Assembly: GCA_026874595.1 (NCBI GenBank)
Contig: CM049313.1
Location: 31,368,008-31,432,007, forward strand
Source: Sipunculus nudus
Taxonomy: Eukaryota; Annelida; Sipuncula; Golfingiida; Sipunculidae
Direction of reading: 5' to 3'
Length of the DNA stretch: 64,000 nucleotides
The notes beneath the pieces were generated by a model, which saw only the letters and a program-made list of their open reading frames with translations, was not told the DNA's origin and did no database searches. How positions within the stretch are numbered: the stretch's first letter is position 1; each line of letters opens with the position of its first letter. Shown here piece by piece: positions 14,794 to 61,470 of this stretch. The position numbers were made by a program, and so were the translations under genes.

Positions 14794-16154
14794 GTAGGTG
14801 TCCGGAGAACTCCTCCGTAACCGCTGGGCGGAATTTTCCGAAACCCGGGATTATGTTCGGGTCACATGTGAACTGCTGCGCCCCGATTTTGTTTTGACCT
14901 CTGACCTTTCCTCTGCGCTCTGCGTCCGTTTGTGCGTCTGTTTCCACACATAAACCCACATATCTCGGGAACCGTTTGACCGATCAGGAAAATTTTTTTG
15001 CACAAATGTAGCCCTCGGAGAGCTTTATAACATACACCAAAAATGGTGGCGCCACCTGCAACCATGTTTGCACAGTGTCCATCTGTTCGTCTGCCTTGGG
15101 TTAAAATCACTCATATCTCTGCAGTGACTTGACTAATTCACCTGAAATTCGGCATGCGCAAACATCCTGGATAGCTTTTCTGATTTTATGACAGGTGGCG
15201 CCACCTACATTCACGTTTACGCTGCAGACATCCAAGCTCATATCTCGGGAACCGTTTGACCGATCAGGAAAATTCTTTTGCACAAATGTAGCCCTTGGAG
15301 AGCTTTATAACATACACCAAAAATGGTGCCGCTACCTGCAACCATGTTTGTACAGTGTCCATCTGTTTGTCTGCCTTGGGTTAAAATCACTCATATCTCT
15401 GCAGTGACTTGACTAATTCCCCTGAAATTTGGCATGCGTATACATCCTGGATAGCTTTTCTGATTTTATGACAGGTGGCGCCACCTACATTCATGTTTAC
15501 GCTGCAGACATCCAAGCTCATATCTCAGGAACCGTTTGATTGATCAGGAAAATTTTTTTGCACAAATGTAGCCCTTGGAGAGCTTTATAACATACACAAA
15601 AAATGGTGGCGCCACCTGCAACCATGTTTGCACAGTGTCCAGCTGTTCGTCTGCCTTGGGTTAAAATCACTCATAACTCTGCAGTGGTTTGACTTATTCA
15701 CCTGAAATTCTGCATGCTTATACATCCTGGATAGCTTTTCTGATTTTATGACAGGTGGCGCCACCTACAATCAAGTTTACGCTGCAGACATCCAAGCTCA
15801 TATCTAGGGAACTGTTTGACCAATTGGGCCAAAATTTTGCATGTGTATAGTTCTCACAAAGCTCTTTATCATACGCTTAACTGGTGGCGCCACCTGCAAC
15901 CCTTTTTTGCACAGCGTCCATCTGTTTGTCTGCCAAGGGCAAAAATCACTCATATACAATATAGTGGTTTGACTTATCTGCCTTAAATTTTGCATATGTA
16001 TACAACTTGGACGGCTTTCTGGATTTTTTGGTAGGTAGCGCAACCTACATACACAATTTGGCTGCAGACATCCATGCTGATATGCAACACTTCACCCGTT
16101 CCACTCTGATTTAGGCGGATACAAGTAGTTGCTTGTCGACTACCCGTATTCTAG
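14710..16154 (+). mobile_element. Helentron-like non-autonomous element (family A) with 280-bp tandem core, copy 1
   Basis: The 5' end carries TTGTATCCGCC (14710..14720). Its inverse GGCGGATACAA lies subterminally at 16114..16124 and is followed by a hairpin with a 7-bp stem, GTAGTTG-CTTGT-CGACTAC (16125..16143), a short spacer and CTAG (16151..16154), then T. This asymmetric inverted repeat plus 3' hairpin is the architecture described for Helentron/Helitron2-type elements and their non-autonomous relatives; assignment is by structure only. The core holds 280-bp direct repeats (landmarks 15045, 15325, 15605, 15883), each made of two related ~140-bp halves joined at versions of the palindrome AGGTGGCGCCACCT. 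A (CCG)n run occupies 14758..14793. The element is nested in the hAT-like element 13878..18512. Confidence 0.75.
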
Positions 16155-27410: not shown

Positions 27411-28693
27411 CTAGAATACAGGTAGTCGACAAGCGACTACGTGTATCCGCCTAAATCAGAGTGGAACGGGTGAAGTGAGGCATGGATTGAGTGGCAAGGG
27501 GAAATAGAGTGTTGCATATTACTGGCGTCACCAGTTTTGCGTATGATAAAGAGCTATGTGAGAACTATACACATGCAAAACTTTGGCCCAATCGGTCAAA
27601 CGGTTCCCAAGATATGAGCTTGGATGTCTGCTGCATAAACTAGAATGCAGGTGGTGTCACCTATCATAAAATTAAGAGAGCTGTCGGGGATGTATAAACC
27701 TGCAAAATTTTAGGCAGATATGTCAAACCACTGCCGAGATATGAGTGATTTTATCCCATGGCAGACAAACAGACAGTAGCTGTGCAAAAATGGCTGCAGG
27801 TGGCGCCACCAGTTTTGCGTATGATAAAGAGCTATGTGAGATCTATACACATGCAAAATTTTGGCCCAATCGGTCAAACGGTTCCTGAGATATGAGCTTG
27901 GATGTCTGCAGCATAAACGTGAATGTAGGTGGCACCACCTGTCATAAAATCAGAAAAGCTATCCAGGATGTATACGCATGCCGAATTTCAGGTGAATTAG
28001 TCAAGTCACTGCGAGATATGAGTGATTTTAACCCAAGGCAGACGAACAGATGGACACTGTGCAAACATGGTTGCCGGTGGCGCCACCATTTTGTGTTTAT
28101 GTTATAAAGCACTATAAGGGCTACATTTGTGCATAAAAATTTTCCTGATCGGTCAAACGGTTCCCGAGATATGAGCTTGGATGTCTGCAGGGTAAACCTG
28201 AATGTAGGTGGCGCCACCTGTCATAAAATCAGAAAAGCTATCCAGGATGTTTACGCATGCCGAATTTCAGGTGAATTAGTCAAGTCACTGCAGAGATATG
28301 AGTGATTTTAACCAAAGGCAGACAAACAGATGGACACTGTGCAAACATGGTTGCAGGTGGCGCCACCATTTTTTGTGTATGTTATACAGCTCTCCAAGGG
28401 CTACATTTGTGCAAAAAAATTTTCCTGATCGGTCAAACAGTTCCCGAGATATGTGGGTTTATGTGTGGAAACAGATGCACAAACGGAGAGCGCAGAGGAA
28501 AGGTCAGGGGTCAAAACAAAATCGGGGCGCAGCAGTTCACATGTGACCCGAACATAATCCCGGGTTTCGTAAAATTCCACCCAGCGGTTACGGAGGAGTT
28601 CTCCGGACACCTACACCGCAGCGGCAGCAGAGGCGGCGGCGGCGTGCAGCTGAAAACATAGTATCCGCAAAACTCTGTTTTGGCGGATACAAT
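27411..28693 (-). mobile_element. Helentron-like family A element, copy 2 (inverted)
   Basis: Read on the minus strand, the element begins TTGTATCCGCC (28692 downward) and finishes with subterminal GGCGGATACAC, the hairpin GTAGTCG-CTTGT-CGACTAC (27440..27422), a short spacer and CTAG (27414..27411) followed by T. These are the same parts in the same order as 14710..16154. The core has about four diverged ~280/140-bp units with GGTGGCGCCACC palindromes. A short CGGCGG repeat near 28630 corresponds to the (CCG)n of copy 1. Frames such as 28302..28661 follow the repeat and recur in copy 1, so they reflect repeat sequence and not a gene. Confidence 0.77.
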
Positions 28694-36362: not shown

Positions 36363-36481
36363 CTATTGCAGCATCTCGGGGCACTGGAAGGCTAGTATGA
36401 TGGCACAGACAAGGAGGATTGTAGAAGCTGCTTGCACACAAGACGAGCCTGGACCACCCATACCTTGGTAGACAGCTGCTG
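36363..36481 (-). CDS. IgLON-like adhesion protein, terminal coding exon with GPI-attachment signal
   Basis: This exon ends the protein. Read on the minus strand, it follows an acceptor TTGTAATTTCAG, enters in phase 1 (CA completes a codon begun by the T ending the stalk exon, giving Ser), and runs 38 codons to TAG at 36365..36363. The peptide has a small-residue stretch GMGGPGSSC, where a GPI attachment residue could lie. A hydrophobic run follows (ASTILLVCAIILAF) and then a short tail CPEMLQ. A small-residue site, spacer and hydrophobic C-terminus without a basic cytoplasmic tail is the GPI-signal pattern, as in IgLON and lachesin proteins, so the mature protein should be tethered to the outer plasma membrane. 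The acceptor is a run of three CAGs (36484..36476) whose alternative use would keep frame. Exact attachment residue is not determined. Confidence 0.87.
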
Positions 36482-37547
36482 CTGAAATTACAAAAAGTCA
36501 CGTGGCCTTTAGATGTACAGAGAAAAAATCAAGAAGTAAATTATTTAATATGACCAGTTGTGAGCATGTGATTGTTTTTGACTATTAATAATTTTAATCC
36601 AGTCTTTGAGGGCTTATAATCAGTAAGAAATGTTACAGCTGGCTGCAGCAACATTCTGTTGGTCAAAGGATTGACAAAGGGTCATAGATCTCGAGCTGTG
36701 CATATACTTGGCTGAATCATAATATTGAAATCATGTTCCTTAATTTAATATATATTCCTGCATCATGGAAAGTCTAAGGTAAACAAACCAAATCAATTCT
36801 CACAAATATCACTCTCAAGTGAAATATCACAATTGGTAACTTTTATTGGCACAATTAATGTAGAAATGTATAAGAACAGATGCATGGATTAACATGAAAT
36901 GTGATGTGCTTATTGATCCTAGCAGTACTATATTTTTACAATACTGAGGGTATTATGTTAACAGTTCCTTTATTCCACCTAAATTTCATTGTATTTTTGA
37001 GGATGAATATTTATAATAGTCTCAATGTAATTTCAGCAGCCAAATAGTTTGCACTGAATCAATAAAAATACACGTGATGATCCGCATTCATCAAGAATAA
37101 TGTCATTAAAGTAATCAACAAGTTCTATTTGGCTTTCCATGACACAGTTCATAATAAATAAACCATCTGCTTGACAATACACAATGAAGTCCAGGCAGGA
37201 TGCAGGGATTGTCATGAAATTGGTTAACTGTGCTGATAAATTTTATCATTTTACTCTGGGAATAATACAGGTGTTGACAAATTTTAGTGGTTATTTTAGA
37301 ATCTGCACATATATATATAAATGAGGTAAATTATTTCTTGGAACAAAAATGCAAAGAAAAACAATCCTGGGTACTTATATATATATATATATATTTTATT
37401 CGCTTTGCGCAGTCCTCATTATGAAAAGTGTATTCTTTATTAAGCAAAAGTAATCAGTTAATGTCATTTTACCTCTGGGCCTTTCTGTTTATCTTACATC
37501 AAAAATAATTTCTGTTGCAGTTTGTTCTAGGTTTTGCTTAAAAAACT

Positions 37548-39876: not shown

Positions 39877-39959
39877 AATGCAGGCGGTTACCTTCAACAA
39901 CAACATAATATTTTGAAAAAAAGTTTGGCTTAAAATCCAGTTAAACGACTGGACTCTAA

Positions 39960-41130
39960 CATTTCTCAGACAGATGAACATTGAACAGGTCATATACTTA
40001 CAATTCTCCTATTGATCAACATGTTGAACAGGTCATACCCTTACAGTTCTCCTACTGATCAACATGTTGAACAGGTCATACCCTTACAGTTCTCCTACTG
40101 ATCAACATGTTGAACAGGTCATACCCTTACAGTTCTCCTACTGATCAACATGTTGAACAGGTCATACCCTTACAGTTCTCCTACTGATCAACTTCTTGAA
40201 CAGGTTATACACTTACAGTTCTCCTACTGATCGACAAAATGAACAGGTCATACACTTATATTTCTCATATTGCCTAACACTGAACAGGTTATACTCTTAC
40301 CTTTCTCATACTGATCAACATTGAACAGGTCATACACTTATATTTCTCATATTGCCTAACACTGAACAGGTTATACTCTTACCTTTTTCATACTGATCAA
40401 CATTGAACAGGTCATACACTTATATTTCTCATATTGCCTAACAATGAACAGGTTATACTCTTACCTTTCTCATACTGATCAACATTGAACAGGTCATACA
40501 CTTATATTTCTCATATTGCCTAACACTGAACAGGTTATACTCTTACCTTTCTCATACTGATCAACATTGAACAGGTCATACACTTATATTTCTCATATTG
40601 CCTAACACTGAACAGGTTATACTCTTACCTTTCTCATACTGATCAACATTGAACAGGTCATACACTTATATTTCTCATATTGCCTAACAATGAACAGGTT
40701 ATACTCTTACCTTTCTCATACTGATCAACATTGAACAGGTCATACACTTATATTTCTCATATTGCCTAACACTGAACAGGTTATACTCTTACCTTTCTCA
40801 TACTGATCAACATTGAACAGGTCATACACTTATATTTCTCATATTGCCTAACACTGAACAGGTTATACTCTTACCTTTCTCATACTGATCAACATTGAAC
40901 AGGTCATACACTTATATTTCTCATATTGCCTAACAATGAACAGGTTATACTCTTACCTTTCTCATACTGATCAACATTGAACAGGTCATACACTTACCCT
41001 TCTCATCCTGATCGACATTGGACAGGTCACACACTTATATTTCTCATATTGCCTAACACTGAACAGGTTATACTGTTACCTTCCTCATACTGTTCAAGAC
41101 TTAACAGATAATATACTTACATTTCTCATA
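39960..41130 (-). repeat. 41/43-bp tandem array carrying splice-donor sequence, overlapping the stalk exon end
   Basis: About 28 units occur. The part farthest from the exon (about 40025..40200) has a 43-bp period (landmarks 40025, 40068). Most of the rest is an 82-bp dimer of two 41-bp monomers (landmarks 40321, 40403). On the gene's sense (minus) strand, one monomer carries TATGAGAAAGGTAAGAGTAT, a good splice-donor sequence, and the other TATGAGAAATATAAGTG, which lacks the GT. About ten donor-like copies are present. The last unit is the real exon/intron junction: TATGAGAAAT, then GTAAGTATAT, continuing into 41 bp of repeat-like text. The array thus appears derived from the junction. Confidence 0.95.
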
Positions 41131-41270
41131 TGGATTGATTTTAGGTTTTGGAGGCTTGGACTCCAGTGATTCCTTCACTGTGGTAGACATGGGCTGAGTT
41201 GTAGAAAGCCGAAAAACCACAATATCTACAGTGGGAGTTGGTGTTGGTGTGGTCTGTTTAGGCTTATATT
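41121..41270 (-). CDS. IgLON-like adhesion protein, Pro/Thr-rich stalk exon
   Basis: This 150-bp exon links the last Ig domain to the GPI signal. On the minus strand it follows the acceptor TTTTCCTCAG and ends before GTAAGTATAT; both junctions are phase 1. The first two bases (AA) join the G ending the Ig exon to give Glu, and the final T joins CA of the last exon to give Ser. The 49 full codons encode YKPKQTTPTPTPTVD, a middle with STTQPMSTT, and SKPPKPKINPYEK. The density of Thr, Ser and Pro suggests an extended, possibly O-glycosylated stalk. IgLON and lachesin proteins have a short linker here. Read-through past the donor gives CKYIIC and then a stop, so failure to splice would yield a form without the GPI signal. 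The exon's 3' end is also a unit of the adjoining array. Confidence 0.9.
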
Positions 41271-43352: not shown

Positions 43353-46300
43353 GTTGTAGACATTCATCAGACAAAGAGGACTAGAAGATACCTGGCTGTA
43401 GACATTCAACAGAAGATACCTGGCTGTAGACATTCAACAGAGAAGGAGGAACAGAGGATACCTGGTCATAGACATCAGAGAAGGAGGAACAGAGGATATC
43501 TGGTTGTAGACATTCAACAAACAAGGAGGAACAGAGGATACCTGGCTGTAGCCATTCAACAAACAAGGAGGAACAGAGGATACCTGGCTGTAGCCATTCA
43601 ACAAACAAGGAGGAACAGAGGATACCTGGCTGTAGCCATTCAACAAACAAGGAGGAACAGAGGATACATGGCTGTAGCCATTCAACAAACAAGGAGGAAC
43701 AGAGGATACATGGCTGTAGCCATTCAACAGACAAGGAGGAACAGAGGATACCTGGCTGTAGCCATTCAACAAACAAGGAGGAACAGAGGATACATGGCTG
43801 TAGCCATTCAACATACAAGGAGGAACAGAGGATACCTGGCTGTAGCCATTCAACAGACAAGGAGGAACAGAGGATACCTGGCTGTAAACATTCATCAGAC
43901 AAGGAGGAACAGAGGATAACTGGTTGTAGACATTCATCAGACAAGGAGGAACAGAGGATACCTGGCTGTAGACATTCAGCAGAGAAGGAGAACAGAGGAT
44001 ACCTTGCTGTAGCCATTCAACAAACAAGGAGGAACAGAGGATACATGGCTGTAGCCATTCAACAGACAAGGAGGAACAGAGGATACCTGGCTGTAGAAAT
44101 TCATCAGACAAGGAGGAACAGAGGATAACTGGTTGTAGACATTCATCAGACAAGGAGGAACAGAGGATACCTGGCTGTAGAAATTCATCAGACAAGGAGG
44201 AACAGAGGATAACTGGTTGTAGACATTCATCAGACAAGGAGGAACAGAGGATACCTGGCTGTAGAAATTCATCAGACAAGGAGGAACAGAGGATAACTGG
44301 TTGTAGACATTCATCAGACAAGGAGGAACAGAGGATACCTGGCTGTAGACATTCAACAGACAATGAGGAACAGAGGATACCTGGCTGTAGAAATTCATCA
44401 GACAAGGAGGAACAGAGGATACCTGGCTGTAGACATTCATCAGACAAGGAGGAACAGAGGATACCTGGCTGTAGAAATTCATCAGACAAGGAGGAACAGA
44501 GGATAACTGGTTGTAGACATTCATCAGACAAGGAGGAACAGAGGATACCTGGCTGTAGAAATTCATCAGACAAGGAGGAACACAGGATAACTGGTTGTAG
44601 ACATTAATCAGACAAGGAGGAACAGAGGATACCTGGCTGTAGACATTCAACAGACAATGAGGAACAGAGGATACTTTGCTGTAGACATTCATCAGACAAG
44701 GAGGAACAGAGGATGTAAACATTTTTCAGACAAGGAGGAAAAGAGGATACCTGGCTGTAGACATTCATCGGACAAGGAGGAACAGAGGATACCTGGCTGT
44801 AGACATTCAGCAGAGAAGGAGGAACAGAGGATACCTGGCTGTAGAAATTCATCAGACAAGGAGGAACAGAGGATAACTGGCTGTAGACATTCAGCAGAAG
44901 GAGGAACAGAGGATACCTGGCTGTAGACATTCAGCAGAGAAGGAGGAACAGAGGATAACTGGCTGTAGACATTCATCAGAGAAGGAGAACAGAGGATACC
45001 TGGCTGTAGACATTCATCAGAGAAGGAGGAACACAGGATAACTGGCTGTAGACATTCAGCAGAGAAGGAGGAACAGAGGATAACTGGCTGTAGACATTCA
45101 TCAGAGAAGGAGAACAGAGGATACCTGGCTGTAGCCATTCATCAGACAAGGAGGAACAGAGGATACCCGGCTGTAGACATTCATCAGACAAAGAGGAAAA
45201 GAGGATGTAGACATTCTTCAGCCAAGGAAGAAAAGAGGATACCTTGCTGTAGACATTCATCAGACAAGGAGGAACAGAGGATGTAGACATTCTTCAGACA
45301 AGGAGGAACAGAGGATACCTGGCTGTAGACATTCATCGGGCAAGGAGGAACAGAGGATACCTGGCTGTAGACATTCAGCAAAGAAAGAGAACAGAGGATA
45401 CCTGGCTGTAGACATTCAGCAGAGAAGGAGAAACAGAGGATACCTGGCTGTAGACATTCAGCAGAGAAGGAGAACAGAGGATACCTGGTGTAGACATTCA
45501 TCAGACAAGGAGGAACAGAGGATACCTGGCTGTAGACATTCAGCAGAGAAGGAGGAACAGAGGATACCTGGCTGTAGACATTCAGCAGAGAAGGAGAACA
45601 GAGGATACCTGGCTGTAGCCATTCATCAGAAAAAGAGGAAAAGAGGATGTAGACATTCTTCAGACAAGGAAGAAAAGAGGATACCTTGCTGTAGACATTC
45701 ATCAGACAAGGAGGAACAGAGGATGTAGACTTTCTTCAGACAAGGAGGAACAGAGGATACCTGGCTGTAGACATTCATCAGACAAGGAGGAACAGAGGAT
45801 ACCCGGCTGTAGACATTCATCAGACAAAGAGGAAAAGAGGATGTAGACATTCTTCAGCCAAGGAAGAAAAGAGGATACCTTGCTGTAGACATTCATCAGA
45901 CAAGGAGGAACAGAGGATGTAGACATTCTTCAGACAAGGAGGAACAGAGGATACCTGGCTGTAGACATTCATCGGGCAAGGAGGAACAGAGGATACCTGG
46001 CTGTAGACATTCAGCAAAGAAAGAGAACAGAGGATACCTGGCTGTAGACATTCAGCAGAGAAGGAGAAACAGAGGATACCTGGCTGTAGACATTCAGCAG
46101 AGAAGGAGAACAGAGGATACCTGGTGTAGACATTCATCAGACAAGGAGGAACAGAGGATACCTGGCTGTAGACATTCAGCAGAGGAGGAACAGAGGATAC
46201 CTGGCTGTAGACATTCATCAGAGAAGGAGAAAAGAGGATACCTGGCTGTAGCCATTCATCAGAAAAAGAGGAAAAGAGGATGTAGACATTCTTCAGACAA

Positions 46301-49300
46301 GGAAGAAAAGAGGATACCTTGCTGTAGACATTCATCAGACAAGGAGGAACAGAGGATGTAGACTTTCTTCAGACAAGGAGGAACAGAGGAGACCTGGCTG
46401 TAGACATTCATCGGGCAAGGAGGAACAGAGGACACCTGGCTGTAGACATTCAGCAAAGAAAGAACAGAGGATACCTGGCTGTATACATTCAGCAGAGAAG
46501 GAGAAAGAGAGGATACCTGGCTGTAGACATTCAGCAGAGAAGGAGAAGAGAGGATACCTGGCTGTAGACATTCATCGGGCAAGGAGGAACAGAGGATACC
46601 TGGCTGTAGACATTCAACAAACAAGGAGGAACAGAGGAAACCTGGCTGTAGACATTCAGCAGAGAAGGAAAAACAGAGGATACCTGGCAGTAGACATTCA
46701 GCAAAGAAGGAGAACAGAGTATACCTGTTGTAGACATTCATCAGACAAGGAGGAACAGAGGATACCTGGCTGTAGACATTCAGCAGACAAGGAGGAACAG
46801 AGGATACCTGGCTGTAGACATTCATCAGACAAGGAGGAACAGAGGATACCTGGCTGTAGACATTCAGCAGAAGGAGGAACAGAGGATACCGTGCTGTAGA
46901 CATTCAGCAGAGAAAGAGAACAGAGGATACCTGGCTGTAGACATTCAGTAGAGAAGGTGGAACAGAGGATACCAGGCTGTAGACATTCAGCAGAGAAGGA
47001 GAACAGAGGATACCTGGCTGTAGCCATTCATCAGACAAGGAGGAACAGAGAATACCCGGCTGCAGACATTCATCAGACAAAGAGGAAAAGAGGATGTAGA
47101 CATTCTTCAGACAAGGAAGAAAAGAGGATACCTTGCTGTAGACATTCATCAGACAAGGAGGAACAGAGGATGTAGTAATTCTTCAGACAAGGAGGAACAG
47201 AGGATACCTGGCTGTAGACATTCATCGGGCAAGGAGGAACAGAGGATACCTGGCTGTAGACATTCAGCAAAGAAAGAGAACAGATGATACCTGGCTGTAG
47301 ACATTCAGCAGAGAAGGAGAAACAGAGGATACCTGGCTGTAGACATTCAGCAGAGATGGAGAACAGAGGATACCTGGCTGTAGACATTCATCAGACAAGG
47401 AGGAACAGAGGATACCTGGCTGTAGACATTCAGCAAAGAAAGAGAACAGAGGATACCTGGTGTAGACATTCATCAGACAAGGAGAAACAGAGGATACCTG
47501 GCTGTAGACATTCAGCAGAGAAGGAGAACAGAGGATACCTGGCTGTAGCCATTCATCAGAAAAAGAGGAAAAGAGGATGTAGACATTCTTCAGACAAGGA
47601 AGAAAAGAGGATACCTTGCTGTAGACATTCATCAGACAAGGAGGAACAGAGGATGTAGACATTCTTCAGACAAGGAGGAACAGAGGATACCTGGCTGTAG
47701 ACATTCATCGGGCAAGGAGGAACAGAGGACACCTGGCTGTAGACATTCAGCAAAGAAAGAACAGAGGATACCTGGCTGTAGACATTCAGCAGAGAAGGAG
47801 AAAGAGAGGATACCTGGCTGTAGACATTCAGCAGAGAAGGAGAACAGAGGAAACCTGGCTGTAGACATTCATCAGACAAGGAGGAACAGAGGATACCTGG
47901 CTGTAGACATTCAGCAGAGAAGGAGGAACAGAGGATACCTGGCTGTAGGCATTCATGAGACAAGGAGGAACAGAGAATACCTGGCTGTAGACATTCAACA
48001 AACAAGGAGAAACAGAGGAAACCTGGCTGTAGACATTCAGCAGAGAAGGAAAAACAGAGGATACCTGGCAGTAGACATTCAGCAAAGAAGGAGAACAGAG
48101 GATACCTGGTGTAGACATTCATCAGACAAGGAGGAACAGAGGATACCTGGCTGTAGACATTCAGCAGACAAGGAGGAACAGAGGATACCTGGCTGTAGAC
48201 ATTCATCAGACAAGGAGGAACAGAGGATACCTGGCTGTAGCCATTCATCAGACAAGGAGGAACAGAGGATACCCAGCTGTAGACATTCATCAGACAAAGA
48301 GAAAAAGAGGATGTAGACATTCTTCAGACAAGGAAGAAAAGAGGATACCTTGCTGTAGACATTCATCAGACAAGGAGGAACAGAGGATGTAGACTTTCTT
48401 CAGACAAGGAGGAACAGAGGATACCTGGCTGTAGACATTCATCGGGCAAGGAGGAACAGCGGACACCTGGCTGTAGACATTCAGCAAAGAAAGAACAGAG
48501 GATACCTGGCTGTAGAATACAGCAGAGAAGGAGAAAGAGAGGATACCTGGCTGTAGACATTCAGCAGAGAAGGAGAACAGAGGATACCTGGTGTAGACAT
48601 TCATCAGACAACGAAGAACAGAGAATACCTGGCTGTAGCCATTCATCAGAAAAAGAGGAAAAGAGGATGTAGACATTCTTCAGACAAGGAAGAAAAGAGG
48701 ATACCTTGCTGTAGACATTCATCAGACAAGGAGGAACAGAGGATGTAGACTTTCTTCAGACAAGGAGGAACAGAGGATACCTGGCTGTAGACATTCATCG
48801 GGCAAGGAGCAACAGAGGACACCTGGCTGTAGACATTCAGCAAAGAAAGAACAGAGGATACCTGGCTGTAGACATTCAGCAGAGAAGGAGAAAGAGAGGA
48901 TACCTGGCTGTAGACATTCAGCAGAGAAGGAGAACAGAGGATACCTGGCTGTAGACATTCATCAGACAAGGAGGAACAGAGGATACCTGGCTGTAGACAT
49001 TCAGCAGAGAAGGAGGAACAGAGGATACCTGGCTGTAGGCATTCATGAGACAAGGAGGAACAGAGGATACCTGGCTGTAGACATTCAACAAACAAGGAGG
49101 AACAGAGGAAACCTGGCTGTAGACATTCAGCAGAGAAGGAAAAACAGAGGATACCTGGCAGTAGACATTCAGCAAAGAAGGAGAACAGAGGATACCTGGC
49201 TGTAGACATTCAACAGAGAAGGAGGAACAGATGATACCTGGCTGTAGACATTCAGCAGAGAAGGAGAACAGAGGGTACCTGGCTGTAGAAATTCAGCAGA

Positions 49301-52300
49301 CAAGGAGGAACAGAGGATACCTGGCTGTAGACATTCAACAGACAAGGAGGAACAGAGGATACCTGGCTGTAGACATTCAACAGAGAAGGAGGAACAGATG
49401 ATACCTGGCTGTAGACATTCAGCAGAGATGGAGAACAGAGGGTACCTGGCTGTAGAAATTCAGCAGAGAAGGAGGAACAGAGGATACCTGGCTGTAGACA
49501 TTCAACAAACAAGGAGAAACAGAGGAAACCTGGCTGTAGACATTCAGCAGAGAAGGAAAAACAGAGGATACCTGGCAGTAGACATTCAGCAAAGAAGGAG
49601 AACAGAGGATACCTGGTGTAGACATTCATCAGACAAGGAGGAACAGAGGATACCTGGCTGTAGACATTCAGCAGACAAGGAGAAACAGAGGAAACCTGGC
49701 TGTAGACATTCAGCAGAGAAGGAAAAACAGAGGATACCTGGCAGTAGACATTCAGCAAAGAAGGAGAACAGAGGATACCTGGTGTAGACATTCATCAGAC
49801 AAGGAGGAACAGAGGATACCTGGCTGTAGACATTCAGCAGACAAGGAGGAACAGAGGATACCTGGCTGTAGACATTCATCAGACAAGGAGGAACAGAGGA
49901 TACCTGGCTGTAGCCATTCATCAGACAAGGAGGAACAGAGGATACCCAGCTGTAGACATTCATCAGACAAAGAGAAAAAGAGGATGTAGACATTCTTCAG
50001 ACAAGGAAGAAAAGAGGATACCTTGCTGTAGACATTCATCAGACAAGGAGGAACAGAGGATGTAGACTTTCTTCAGACAAGGAGGAACAGAGGATACCTG
50101 GCTGTAGACATTCATCGGGCAAGGAGGAACAGCGGACACCTGGCTGTAGACATTCAGCAAAGAAAGAACAGAGGATACCTGGCTGTAGAATACAGCAGAG
50201 AAGGAGAAAGAGAGGATACCTGGCTGTAGACATTCAGCAGAGAAGGAGAACAGAGGATACCTGGTGTAGACATTCATCAGACAACGAAGAACAGAGAATA
50301 CCTGGCTGTAGCCATTCATCAGAAAAAGAGGAAAAGAGGATGTAGACATTCTTCAGATAAGGAAGAAAAGAGGATACCTTGCTGTAGACATTCATCAGAC
50401 AAGGAGGAACAGAGGATGTAGACTTTCTTCAGACAAGGAGGAACAGAGGATACCTGGCTGTAGACATTCATCGGGCAAGGAGGAACAGAGGACACCTGGC
50501 TGTAGACATTCAGCAAAGAAAGAACAGAGGATACCTGGCTGTAGACATTCAGCAGAGAAGGAGAAAGAGAGGATACCTGGCTGTAGACATTCAGCAGAGA
50601 AGGAGAACAGAGGATACCTGGCTGTAGACATTCATCAGACAAGGAGGAACAGAGGATACCTGGCTGTAGACATTCAGCAGAGAAGGAGGAACAGAGGATA
50701 CCTGGCTGTAGGCATTCATGAGACAAGGAGGAACAGAGGATACCTGGCTGTAGACATTCAACAAACAAGGAGGAACAGAGGAAACCTGGCTGTAGACATT
50801 CAGCAGAGAAGGAAAAACAGAGGATACCTGGCAGTAGACATTCAGCAAAGAAGGAGAACAGAGGATACCTGGCTGTAGACATTCAACAGAGAAGGAGGAA
50901 CAGATGATACCTGGCTGTAGACATTCAGCAGAGAAGGAGAACAGAGGGTACCTGGCTGTAGAAATTCAGCAGACAAGGAGGAACAGAGGATACCTGGCTG
51001 TAGACATTCAACAGACAAGGAGGAACAGAGGATACCTGGCTGTAGACATTCAACAGAGAAGGAGGAACAGATGATACCTGGCTGTAGACATTCAGCAGAG
51101 ATGGAGAACAGAGGGTACCTGGCTGTAGAAATTCAGCAGAGAAGGAGGAACAGAGGATACCTGGCTGTAGACATTCAGCAGAGATGGAGAACAGAGGGTA
51201 CCTGGCTGTAGACATTCAGCAGAGATGGAGGACAGAGGGTACCTGGCTGTAGAAATTCAGCAGAGAAGGAGGAACAGAGGATACCTGGCTGTAGACATTC
51301 AACAGACAAGGAGGAACAGAGGATACATGGCTGTAGACATTCAACAGACAAGGAGGAACAGAGGGTACCTGGCTGTAGACATTCAGCAAAGAAGGAGAAC
51401 AGAGGGTACCTGGCTGTAGACATTCAGCAGAGATGGAGAACAGAGGGTACCTGGCTGTAGACATTCAGCAGAGAAGGAGGAACAGAGGATACATGGCTGT
51501 AGACATTAATCGGACAAGGAGGAACAGAGTATACCTAGCTGTAGACATTCAACAGACAAGGAGGAACAGATGATACCTGGCTGTAGACATTCAGCAAAGA
51601 AGGAGAACAGAGGGTACCTGGCTGTAGACATTCAGCAGAGATGGAGAACAGAGGGTACCTGGCTGTAGACATTCAGCAGAGAAGGAGGAACAGAGGATAC
51701 ATGGCTGTAGACATTAATCGGACAAGGAGGAACAGAGGATACCTAGCTGTAGACATTCAACAGACAAGGAGGAACAGATGATACCTGGCTGTAGACATTC
51801 AGCAAAGAAGGAGAACAGAGGGTACCTGGCTGTAGACATTCAGCAGAGATGGAGAACAGAGGGTACCTGGCTGTAGACATTCAGCAGAGAAGGAGGAACA
51901 GAGGATACATGGCTGTAGACATTAATCGGACAAGGAGGAACAGAGGATACCTAGCTGTAGACATTCAACAGACAAGGAGGAACAGATGATACCTGGCTGT
52001 AGACATTCAGCAAAGAAGGAGAACAGAGGGTACCTGGCTGTAGACATTCAGGAGAGATGGAGAACAGAGGGTACCTGGCTGTAGAAATTCAGCAGACAAG
52101 GAGGAACAGAGGATACCTGGCTGTAGACATTCAACAGACAAGGAGGAACAGAGGATACCTGGCTGTAGCCATTCAACAGACAAGGAGGAACAGAGGATAC
52201 CTGGCTGTAGAAATTCATCAGACAAGGAGGAACAGAGGATACCTGGCTGTAGACATTCATCGGACAAGGAGGAACAGAGGATACCTGGCTGTAGACATTG

Positions 52301-52410
52301 AGCAGAGAAGGAGGAACAGAGGATACCAGCTGTAGATATTCAACAGACAAGGAGTAACAGAGGATACCTGGCTGTAGACATTCATGAGACAAGGAGGAAC
52401 AGAGGATACC
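43353..52410 (-). repeat. 9-kb 42-bp minisatellite in an intron of the IgLON-like gene
   Basis: About 215 direct copies of a 42-bp unit, with plus-strand landmarks GACATTCATCAGACAAGGAG, GAACAGAGGATACC and TGGCTGTA. Shorter units lose 3 to 12 bases. Because 42 is a multiple of three and few units contain stops, long frames open on both strands (up to 379 codons at 43434..44573, minus) with 14-residue periods such as SDECLQPGILCSSL; these are by-products. Higher-order repetition is clear. Blocks recur at 636 bp (45184 and 45820), 1297 bp (46335 and 47632), 1673 bp (48079 and 49752; 48290 and 49963; 48646 and 50319), and a 208-bp unit repeats three times (51483, 51691, 51899). The plus strand is purine-rich, so the gene's sense strand is pyrimidine-rich. 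Confidence 0.97.
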
Positions 52411-52420
52411 TCATCACCCA

Positions 52421-53915: not shown

Positions 53916-54203
53916 CTAAAAGTTCCATATATTTAGAATTCTTTCCCAATGTATTGGATGCAGAACATGTGTACCAGCCAAAATCTGCTGCAGTAAGGTC
54001 TGTGATCTCCAGACTAAGGCTGATTGTTTTCCTGTTGTCATTGATTAGAACAAGACGATGGTTTTCTGTATTGTGTAATGACTGGCCATTCTTCTCCCAG
54101 TAAACCTGAGCTAATGGGTAAGCTGAAACCTCGCACATAAGCACTGTACTCTTCCCAACTTGTTGGTACAATTTAGCATTTGTTAACATGACTTCTGGTG
54201 GAT
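53916..54203 (-). CDS. IgLON/lachesin-like adhesion protein, last Ig domain exon
   Basis: One exon encodes one Ig (I-set/C2-like) domain, extracellular, of the kind that mediates adhesion between cells or axons. On the minus strand it follows TGGTTTCTTTTCAG and ends ...CTTTTAG before GTAAGAG. It is 288 bp and phase 1 at both ends, as is usual for Ig-domain exons. The first full codons read PPEV, and the domain has Cys23, Trp35 and Asp73-Phe-Gly75-Trp-Tyr77-Thr-Cys79 (numbering from the first full codon). Those two cysteines should form the fold's disulfide, and ASNTLG after Cys79 is typical of the third Ig domain of IgLON/lachesin/neurotrimin proteins. I see no N-x-S/T sequon. It joins in phase to the stalk exon 12.6 kb away. 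Earlier exons are not found before 64000. Other Ig adhesion families (for example DPR-, DIP- or Klingon-like) are possible. Confidence 0.92.
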
Positions 54204-59770: not shown

Positions 59771-61179
59771 AAAATGATAATGCATGTTCAGACAGTGATA
59801 AATGTTATTTCATCAGGAAAGACAGCTACATGTTAATTTTCACTTAAAATAAGTGGCCTTTTGCCGTATCAGATGAATTTAAACCTTATTTAAGGCACCA
59901 ATGCATATTTATTTTAAAAACATACACTTGATGCTTTATTTTTCAGAATGCCAGTTGGTTCATACATTTTAATCAGTGAAAAGTCATATTGTGCATTATC
60001 TAGAATTTCAGTGACTTATAATATCTGTTTTAGTTAGAATCCTTTACTGTTCATTATTTCTGGGAACGAATAATAGTCAGTTTTAGTCATATGCTTTGTT
60101 ATCCAAAATAATTGAGCAGACAGTGTTATCACTGCGCTCAATAATTTTTTATTGCACGTAAATGCCAGTTGGGAAAAGGGCAATAAGAGCTGGACTGGCC
60201 GGAGTCAAAAGGTCATTGGATTACAAGGGGATGACACAGTGGCCAATTTTTACTACAAAAGGGGTACCATCAGCCCTGCATAACAGCAGGGTTAACATGA
60301 AAGCTCTGCCTGCTTGTTATGGCAAATGTATGTGGGTGGAGTGGCCTCGTGGGATACTTTATATGTTCTGAATGGCCCAATAGAAGCACTGCAGGTGGGA
60401 CTGAGGCATCTCTCCAGCCAGCATACACCGGCCTTTGGCAGGACCTGAGGAGCCATTCCTACAGCTTAATTTGTGTCAGGCATCTTTGTTCAGCTCATTA
60501 CTCAGTTAAACATAATGATGTGAAACATACATCTCTGTTAAACATAATGTCTGTGAAACATACAGCTCAGCAAAAATCCTCATCTGATTAAATTTCACTA
60601 AATTAGATCCAGGTTCTAAATGAAGAGGCTTCCATGAGATTAATTTAATGTTACACAAAACATTCTCCTTTAATTAATCATCAGTGGACCATACCACAGC
60701 ATATTGTGAAGCTATTTACTGGTAGAAACCAACAGAGTGAAGCATGTCTATAGCAGTTTTGTTTCTGTCTGGAGATTAGGTTTTGACAGGGTAATCATGC
60801 ATTAACAATGATAAAAATGTGTATGTATGCTCATTGGGCATTACAACTATACAGCTAATTGCTTAAAAATCCTTATGTTGCAATTAACACACATTTTCTT
60901 TCCAACCTCCTGATTTTGCATACTATGCTGGAAAAAAGATGTAGTTAAAATGAATCCCTAGGGCATTTTATTTGCATTTCTCTCAGCTAAGGTACTATAC
61001 CAGAGAAAAACCCAAATGAAGGCAAACCAACACACACACAATTAATGCACAGGGCTCCATTTGAACTCTCTGGAAGTGGGGCAGTTATCTTCATAAAATA
61101 AAATTGACTTTGAGAATATTAGCCTAGAGGAATGATATTCCTTCTGAAAATATAAAGAGAGATTGAGGATTCTGTTTTG
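59771..61179. other. Intron, with a less AT-rich patch at 60160..60480
   Basis: Most of this stretch is AT-rich and unremarkable. The patch at 60160..60480 has a plus-strand frame (60162..60371, 69 codons) with no recognisable domain, antisense to the host gene. It may be a unique, possibly conserved non-coding segment. Short diverged repeats of TTAAACATAATG(A/T)(C/T)TGTGAAACATAC lie at 60505..60565. Confidence 0.4.
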
Positions 61180-61470
61180 TTTTTGGAACAATACTTTTGT
61201 TTGGTAGTGAGGATTTTTTTTGTCCTTGGAACAATACTTTTGTTTGGTAGTGAGGATTTTTTTTTTGTCCTTGGAACAATACTTTTGTTTGGTAGTGAGG
61301 ATTTTTTTTTGTTCTTGGAACAATACTTTTGTTTGGTAGTGAGGATTTTTTTTGTTCTTGGAACAATACTTTTGTTTGGTAGTGAGGATTTTTTTTGTTC
61401 TTGGAACAATACTTTTGTTTGGTAGTGAGGATTTTATTTGTTCTTGGAACAATACTTTTGTTTGGTAGTT
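61180..61470 (+). repeat. 43-bp tandem repeat, seven copies
   Basis: Seven copies carry TTGGAACAATACTTTTGTTT, GGTAGTGAGGATT and a variable T run. GGAACA landmarks occur at 61185, 61228, 61273, 61317, 61360, 61403 and 61446. Unit length varies only with the T run. Frames up to 154 codons on the minus strand (61042..61506) follow the repeat and are not a gene. Confidence 0.95.

Follow-up and report, generated by a model that had tools for sequence, protein, structure and literature searches.

The window, a 64-kb stretch of Sipunculus nudus DNA, carries on its minus strand exons of a gene for an Ig-superfamily adhesion protein, together with a tandem array that adjoins one of these exons and holds, in its first unit, that exon's own splice donor (tiling, similarity test). 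The exons of the host gene within the window are as follows, with coordinates given as positions of the window.

53916..54203, minus strand: Ig3 exon of an Ig-superfamily adhesion protein of the IgLON / Dpr-interacting-protein (DIP) type (Pfam, PDB relatives, in-frame splice)
41121..41270, minus strand: stalk exon, 150 nt, phase 1-1, ending ...CCATATGAGAAAT (in-frame translation, homologous paralogue exon)
36363..36481, minus strand: terminal exon, with a small/polar stretch, the hydrophobic TILLVCAIILAF and a stop

The Ig3 exon matches the Pfam families Ig_3 (1.9e-15) and I-set (2e-14), and its sequence relatives in the PDB include Dpr-interacting proteins, neurotrimin, OBCAM and IgLON5; the start of Ig2, of which a part lies ~17.6 kb past the window end and upstream in the gene (locus L029), also has PDB sequence relatives of the IgLON / DIP kind. 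Because titin, DSCAM and Robo chains outscore IgLON / DIP among the PDB relatives of the Ig domains, the Ig subfamily is not fixed. When joined, the Ig3 (54203-53916), stalk (41270-41121) and terminal (36481-36363) exons read in frame to ...KINPYEKSAAVYQGMGGPGSSCVQAASTILLVCAIILAFQCPEMLQ and a stop, and the terminal exon, translated in frame to ...SAAVYQGMGGPGSSCVQAASTILLVCAIILAFQCPEMLQ before the stop, has a single match in the genome. The host gene presents Ig3, the start of Ig2 and a hydrophobic C-terminus, and the terminal exon likely encodes a GPI signal, as predicted from its residues. The acceptor of this exon (36476-36487, minus strand) reads TTTCAGCAGCAG, three in-frame acceptors in tandem, so that splicing could also give proteins that lack one or two residues ahead of the GPI signal.

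The array begins within the stalk exon and extends into the following intron; in the list below and in the text, a slash in a donor marks the boundary between exon and intron.

41133..39933, minus strand: tandem array in its total extent, 28 units of 41 or 43 bp and one degenerate unit
41093..41133, minus strand: unit 1, the true exon/intron junction (tiling, similarity test, genome pattern match with 3 mismatches)
41101..41103, minus strand: in-frame TAA met upon use of any downstream donor, after ...NPYEKCKYIIC (direct reading, ORF)
Last exon base 40998 and +1 G 40997, minus strand: downstream donor with the best U1 pairing, AGG/GTAAGT (PWM, U1 duplex)
39974..41092, minus strand: units 2-28 (tiling, TRF, donor scores)
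39933..39973, minus strand: degenerate unit 29, CTGTCTGAGAAATGTTAGAGTC... (tiling)
A-type unit: AAATATAAG, 41 bp, donor dead
B-type unit: AAAGGTAAGAG, 41 bp, donor strong
C-type unit: AACTGTAAGGG, 43 bp, in the far block of the array

TRF describes 39953..41130 as 14.2 copies of period 82 with 91% matches, and dynamic-programming tiling of the minus strand divides the array into 28 contiguous units, from 41133 to 39974, followed by the degenerate 29th; both analyses bear out the tandem array of about 28 copies at 39960-41139 that a first-pass annotation of this DNA had described. That annotation had placed the exon/intron junction in the last 41 bp of the array on the sense strand, where it is in fact the first unit, and its count of roughly ten copies of one sequence resolves into exactly eight that read TATGAGAAAGGTAAGAG and one further near copy with an GGTAAGAG donor. 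The tiling separates two blocks, one of 82-bp A/B dimers and one of 43-bp C units, with A and B types at 41 bp and the 43-bp length found mainly in the C type. The near-identity of the 82-bp dimers, as seen in one assembly, suggests recent turnover of the array. A crude rule found no acceptor-like sites in the 41-bp array, Rfam returned no match within the 64-kb window, and a single fold of two dimers, taken without a shuffle baseline, gave -28.4 kcal/mol over 164 nt.

Other tandem repeats occur nearby. The intron preceding the stalk exon holds a 9-kb, single-locus minisatellite (43408-52411) of ~220 copies of a 42-bp unit, which touches no splice site, is without strong sense-strand donors and has an ordinary density of acceptor-like sites. 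Two arrays with a 280-bp period (14959-16083 and 27591-28453) lie in opposite orientation, their consensus units sharing CATATCTCGGGAACCGTTTGACCGAT and its complement, and a 43-bp array at 61164-61469 (7 copies, 96% alike, all three minus-strand frames open) is probably a young minisatellite.

Unit 1 consists of CCATATGAGAAAT, the final 13 nt of the stalk exon, followed in register by GTAAGTATATTATCTGTTAAGTCTTGAA, the initial 28 nt of its intron, and the real donor GTAAGT starts inside it, at 41120; the junction sequence at this locus is TATGAGAAAT/GTAAGTATAT. With the donor consensus (-3..+6) left out, unit 1 agrees with the units at 24 positions out of 32, a score that none of 20,000 shuffles reached (the highest was 21); among the 3,581 further GT sites of the window's minus strand, the top score was 19. 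Beyond these 13 nt, no significant homology extends into the exon (shuffle fractions 0.06-0.41). A pattern search of the 1.43-Gb genome allowing up to three mismatches returned 28 sites, all of them in the array and the true junction among them, while the reversed control pattern returned none in the same genome-wide search. A DNA similarity search of the 1.43-Gb genome found the unit at no other locus, a result that by itself does not prove absence. A dispersed satellite or a transposon-borne repeat was considered and rejected, as both searches place the unit at one locus only.

A paralogue with Ig2 and Ig3 exons lies ~15 Mb off on the same contig, and its stalk exon could be located.

L032:6502-6669: paralogue stalk exon, EYKPRIHTQPPPP...NSIIENE, phase 1-1, donor AAA/GTGAGT

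No comparable array was found in the 10-kb locus with this exon or in the next 10 kb, and no GPI exon in the 30 kb examined. The start of the paralogue's intron is not significantly similar to the unit (p 0.11 at best), and for that reason we do not take its likeness as evidence. The paralogue supports the view that the exon end is a real, older splice junction and that the array is local to the host gene; how old the array is does not follow from its absence in an old paralogue.

An origin at the exon/intron junction is well supported: the match is in register, the unit was found at no other place in the genome, the gene model reads in frame, and an array-free paralogue has both exon and donor. 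The proposal of the first-pass annotation that the minisatellite arose from a functional junction holds on these grounds. In the history that we propose, the exon end and intron start (~13 + 28 nt) would have been duplicated in tandem, and copies would then have spread into the intron via unequal exchange or slippage. Since unit 1 and the far-end unit 28 both have T/GTAAGTATAT, the ancestral unit probably carried a working donor. Subsequently, a +1 G to A change would have abolished this donor in the A lineage and a -1 T to G change would have made it stronger in the B lineage, with the A/B dimer spreading afterwards.

We scored donors by a generic animal donor matrix, rather than one trained on the species' own introns, together with the energy of pairing to U1, whose 5' end in the present genome is ATACTTACCTGG. 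The U1 snRNA genes themselves number at least 42 with equal scores and form tandem arrays, mostly at ~2.8-2.9 kb spacing; they lie at L035-L040, on contig C6 at 50.26-50.37 Mb and 88.24-88.30 Mb. The real donor, AAT/GTAAGT, has a PWM score of 7.86 and a U1 duplex of -7.3 kcal/mol, compared with 10.42 and -9.5 kcal/mol for nine B-type donors (AAG/GTAAGA) and 10.39 and -11.9 kcal/mol for the donor at 40997, which would give a 273-nt exon; C-type donors are weaker (PWM 5.83). Ten array donors consequently outscore the real donor and pair better with U1. Sites that reach the real donor's score number 10 in the array; stretches of equal length hold on average 0.67 of them elsewhere on this strand (maximum 3) and 0.61 on the opposite strand (maximum 5). 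In A-type units, AT replaces GT (+1 G to A), leaving about ten units dead as donors. The earlier picture of many competing donors after the real one therefore stands for the ten that outscore it in sequence and fails for the large share of units, those of the A type, that lost their GT, so that the array is not a simple multiplication of a working donor. Given ten downstream donors with better U1 pairing, donors in the array could serve a sizeable fraction of transcripts.

Such use would have a defined consequence for the reading frame. Any downstream donor retains CKYIIC and a stop, as the earlier reading had it, with the TAA at 41103-41101. The distance from this stop to the exon junction is 103 nt with 40997, the first strong downstream donor, and larger with the other strong donors; only 41090 and 41079 (AAG/GTAACA), both weak, sit within 50 nt of it. 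Under the 50-55 nt rule established in other animals, a stop further upstream of an exon junction leads to NMD. As every strong donor would put 103 nt or more between the stop and the junction, we predict that the mRNA is degraded and that no protein is released from it.

The closest known counterpart is the human ABCA7 intron 18 VNTR, a 25-bp repeat with 23.7 units in the reference, in which the first GT is the exon 18 donor (Acta Neuropathol. 2018; PMC5954066). Retention of one ABCA7 unit via the next donor shifts the frame and creates a premature stop, making the product an NMD target; cycloheximide raises the level of PTC-bearing products, and unit retention does not vary with VNTR length, although skipping of the downstream exon and total expression do depend on it (PMC5954066). 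In both cases the array directly follows the exon, its first unit holds the exon's donor and its units repeat that donor. The two differ in gene, organism and unit (41/43 bp here), in the 13 exon nucleotides that unit 1 includes in Sipunculus, and in that many donors here are dead while ten later ones outscore the real one; moreover, the measurements of polymorphism and splicing are those of ABCA7. For the IFI6 (6-16) minisatellite, the passage in PMC4526556 that cites Turri, Cuin and Porter (1995, NAR 23:1854) describes two downstream repeat units used as donors and three mRNAs. There, as here, a minisatellite supplies several splice donors to one exon, but the genes are unrelated, and the IFI6 isoforms are coding whereas here an early stop follows. 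The IFI6 unit is also short, reportedly 12 bp. C. elegans CeRep25B is an intronic minisatellite with a statistical association with alternative splicing (PMC4039745); it is a family enriched around numerous regions of alternative splicing, and it carries regulatory motifs rather than copies of a host exon's donor, unlike the single-locus unit described here. A literature search for soluble isoforms of IgLON proteins returned nothing. Read from its sequence, the array is a minisatellite born from, and repeating, the host exon's splice donor, a kind already known from ABCA7 and IFI6.

Other accounts of the array's origin and effect deserve weighing. It might be an ordinary intronic minisatellite with an edge that replaced the exon end at a later time or simply looks like it. 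As the exon side of the match covers only 13 nt, with no significant extension into the exon, the junction edge may be a later conversion by an array that arose a little way into the intron, and the lack of significant unit-likeness at the paralogue's intron start is consistent with such a history; an in-register match that exceeds all shuffles and all other GT sites on the window's minus strand, the same donor sequence at both array edges and the lack of any further locus with the unit in the genome search make this account highly improbable. As to function, the first-pass annotation had suggested that copy number tunes the ratio of membrane-bound to released protein, which, if true, would make the minisatellite a rheostat between anchored and secreted forms of an adhesion protein. 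Every downstream donor does retain the CKYIIC-stop, ten donors outscore the real one, and repeat donors are usable in IFI6 according to the passage in PMC4526556. Against this, NMD is predicted for every strong array donor, each of which leaves 103 nt or more between stop and junction, and only the two weak sites (41090, 41079) lie within 50 nt of the stop; many units have no functional donor; and unit retention in ABCA7 did not track VNTR length (PMC5954066). The suggested tuning thus finds no support, and what is known at present makes such a rheostat unlikely; that array donors would be substantially used in a length-dependent manner and yield a stable mRNA encoding a released form that lacks the GPI signal strikes us as very improbable.

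The same predicted decay could instead serve as an unproductive-splicing valve, with array donors regularly used to set the level of the adhesion protein. Strong donors from 123 nt past the real one, all with the stop upstream of the junction, would suit such a switch, and the unit-retention products of ABCA7 are NMD targets (PMC5954066), yet dead-donor A units have been amplified just as well as B units have, without sign of selection for donors, and the fall of ABCA7 expression with length is unexplained by unit-retention products (PMC5954066), so we regard this possibility as unlikely. The array might also act on splicing at a distance, altering the skipping of a neighbouring exon (the 150-nt stalk exon) via the binding of splicing factors or U1 sequestration. 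ABCA7 VNTR length correlates with exon 19 skipping (PMC5954066), and the stalk exon, at 150 nt and phase 1-1, is symmetric, so that its skipping would leave the GPI exon in frame; the exon skipped in ABCA7 is, however, the downstream one, which here is the terminal exon, and we hold this effect to be distinctly unlikely.

We favour, as fairly probable, the reading that the array was born at the junction and at present amounts chiefly to a by-product of repeat turnover, with the true donor dominant and the products of array donors mostly removed by NMD. The true, exon-proximal donor would serve most transcripts, favoured by where it lies and by the way in which the 150-nt exon is defined. Nearby strong donors, 40997 foremost, would be used occasionally, adding 123 nt or more and an early stop, and these products would mostly be cleared by NMD. 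The effect on the gene, if any, would be a modest loss of output rather than a made-to-measure released isoform. Dead and strong donors have been amplified together, which gives no hint of selection for donor number, and an array of donors alone does not demonstrate regulation. What appears new is a minisatellite made from a live junction outside the known human cases of ABCA7 and IFI6, with ten stronger-looking decoy donors; with such decoys in place, the locus offers a natural test of how the spliceosome chooses an exon-proximal donor among better-matching sites.
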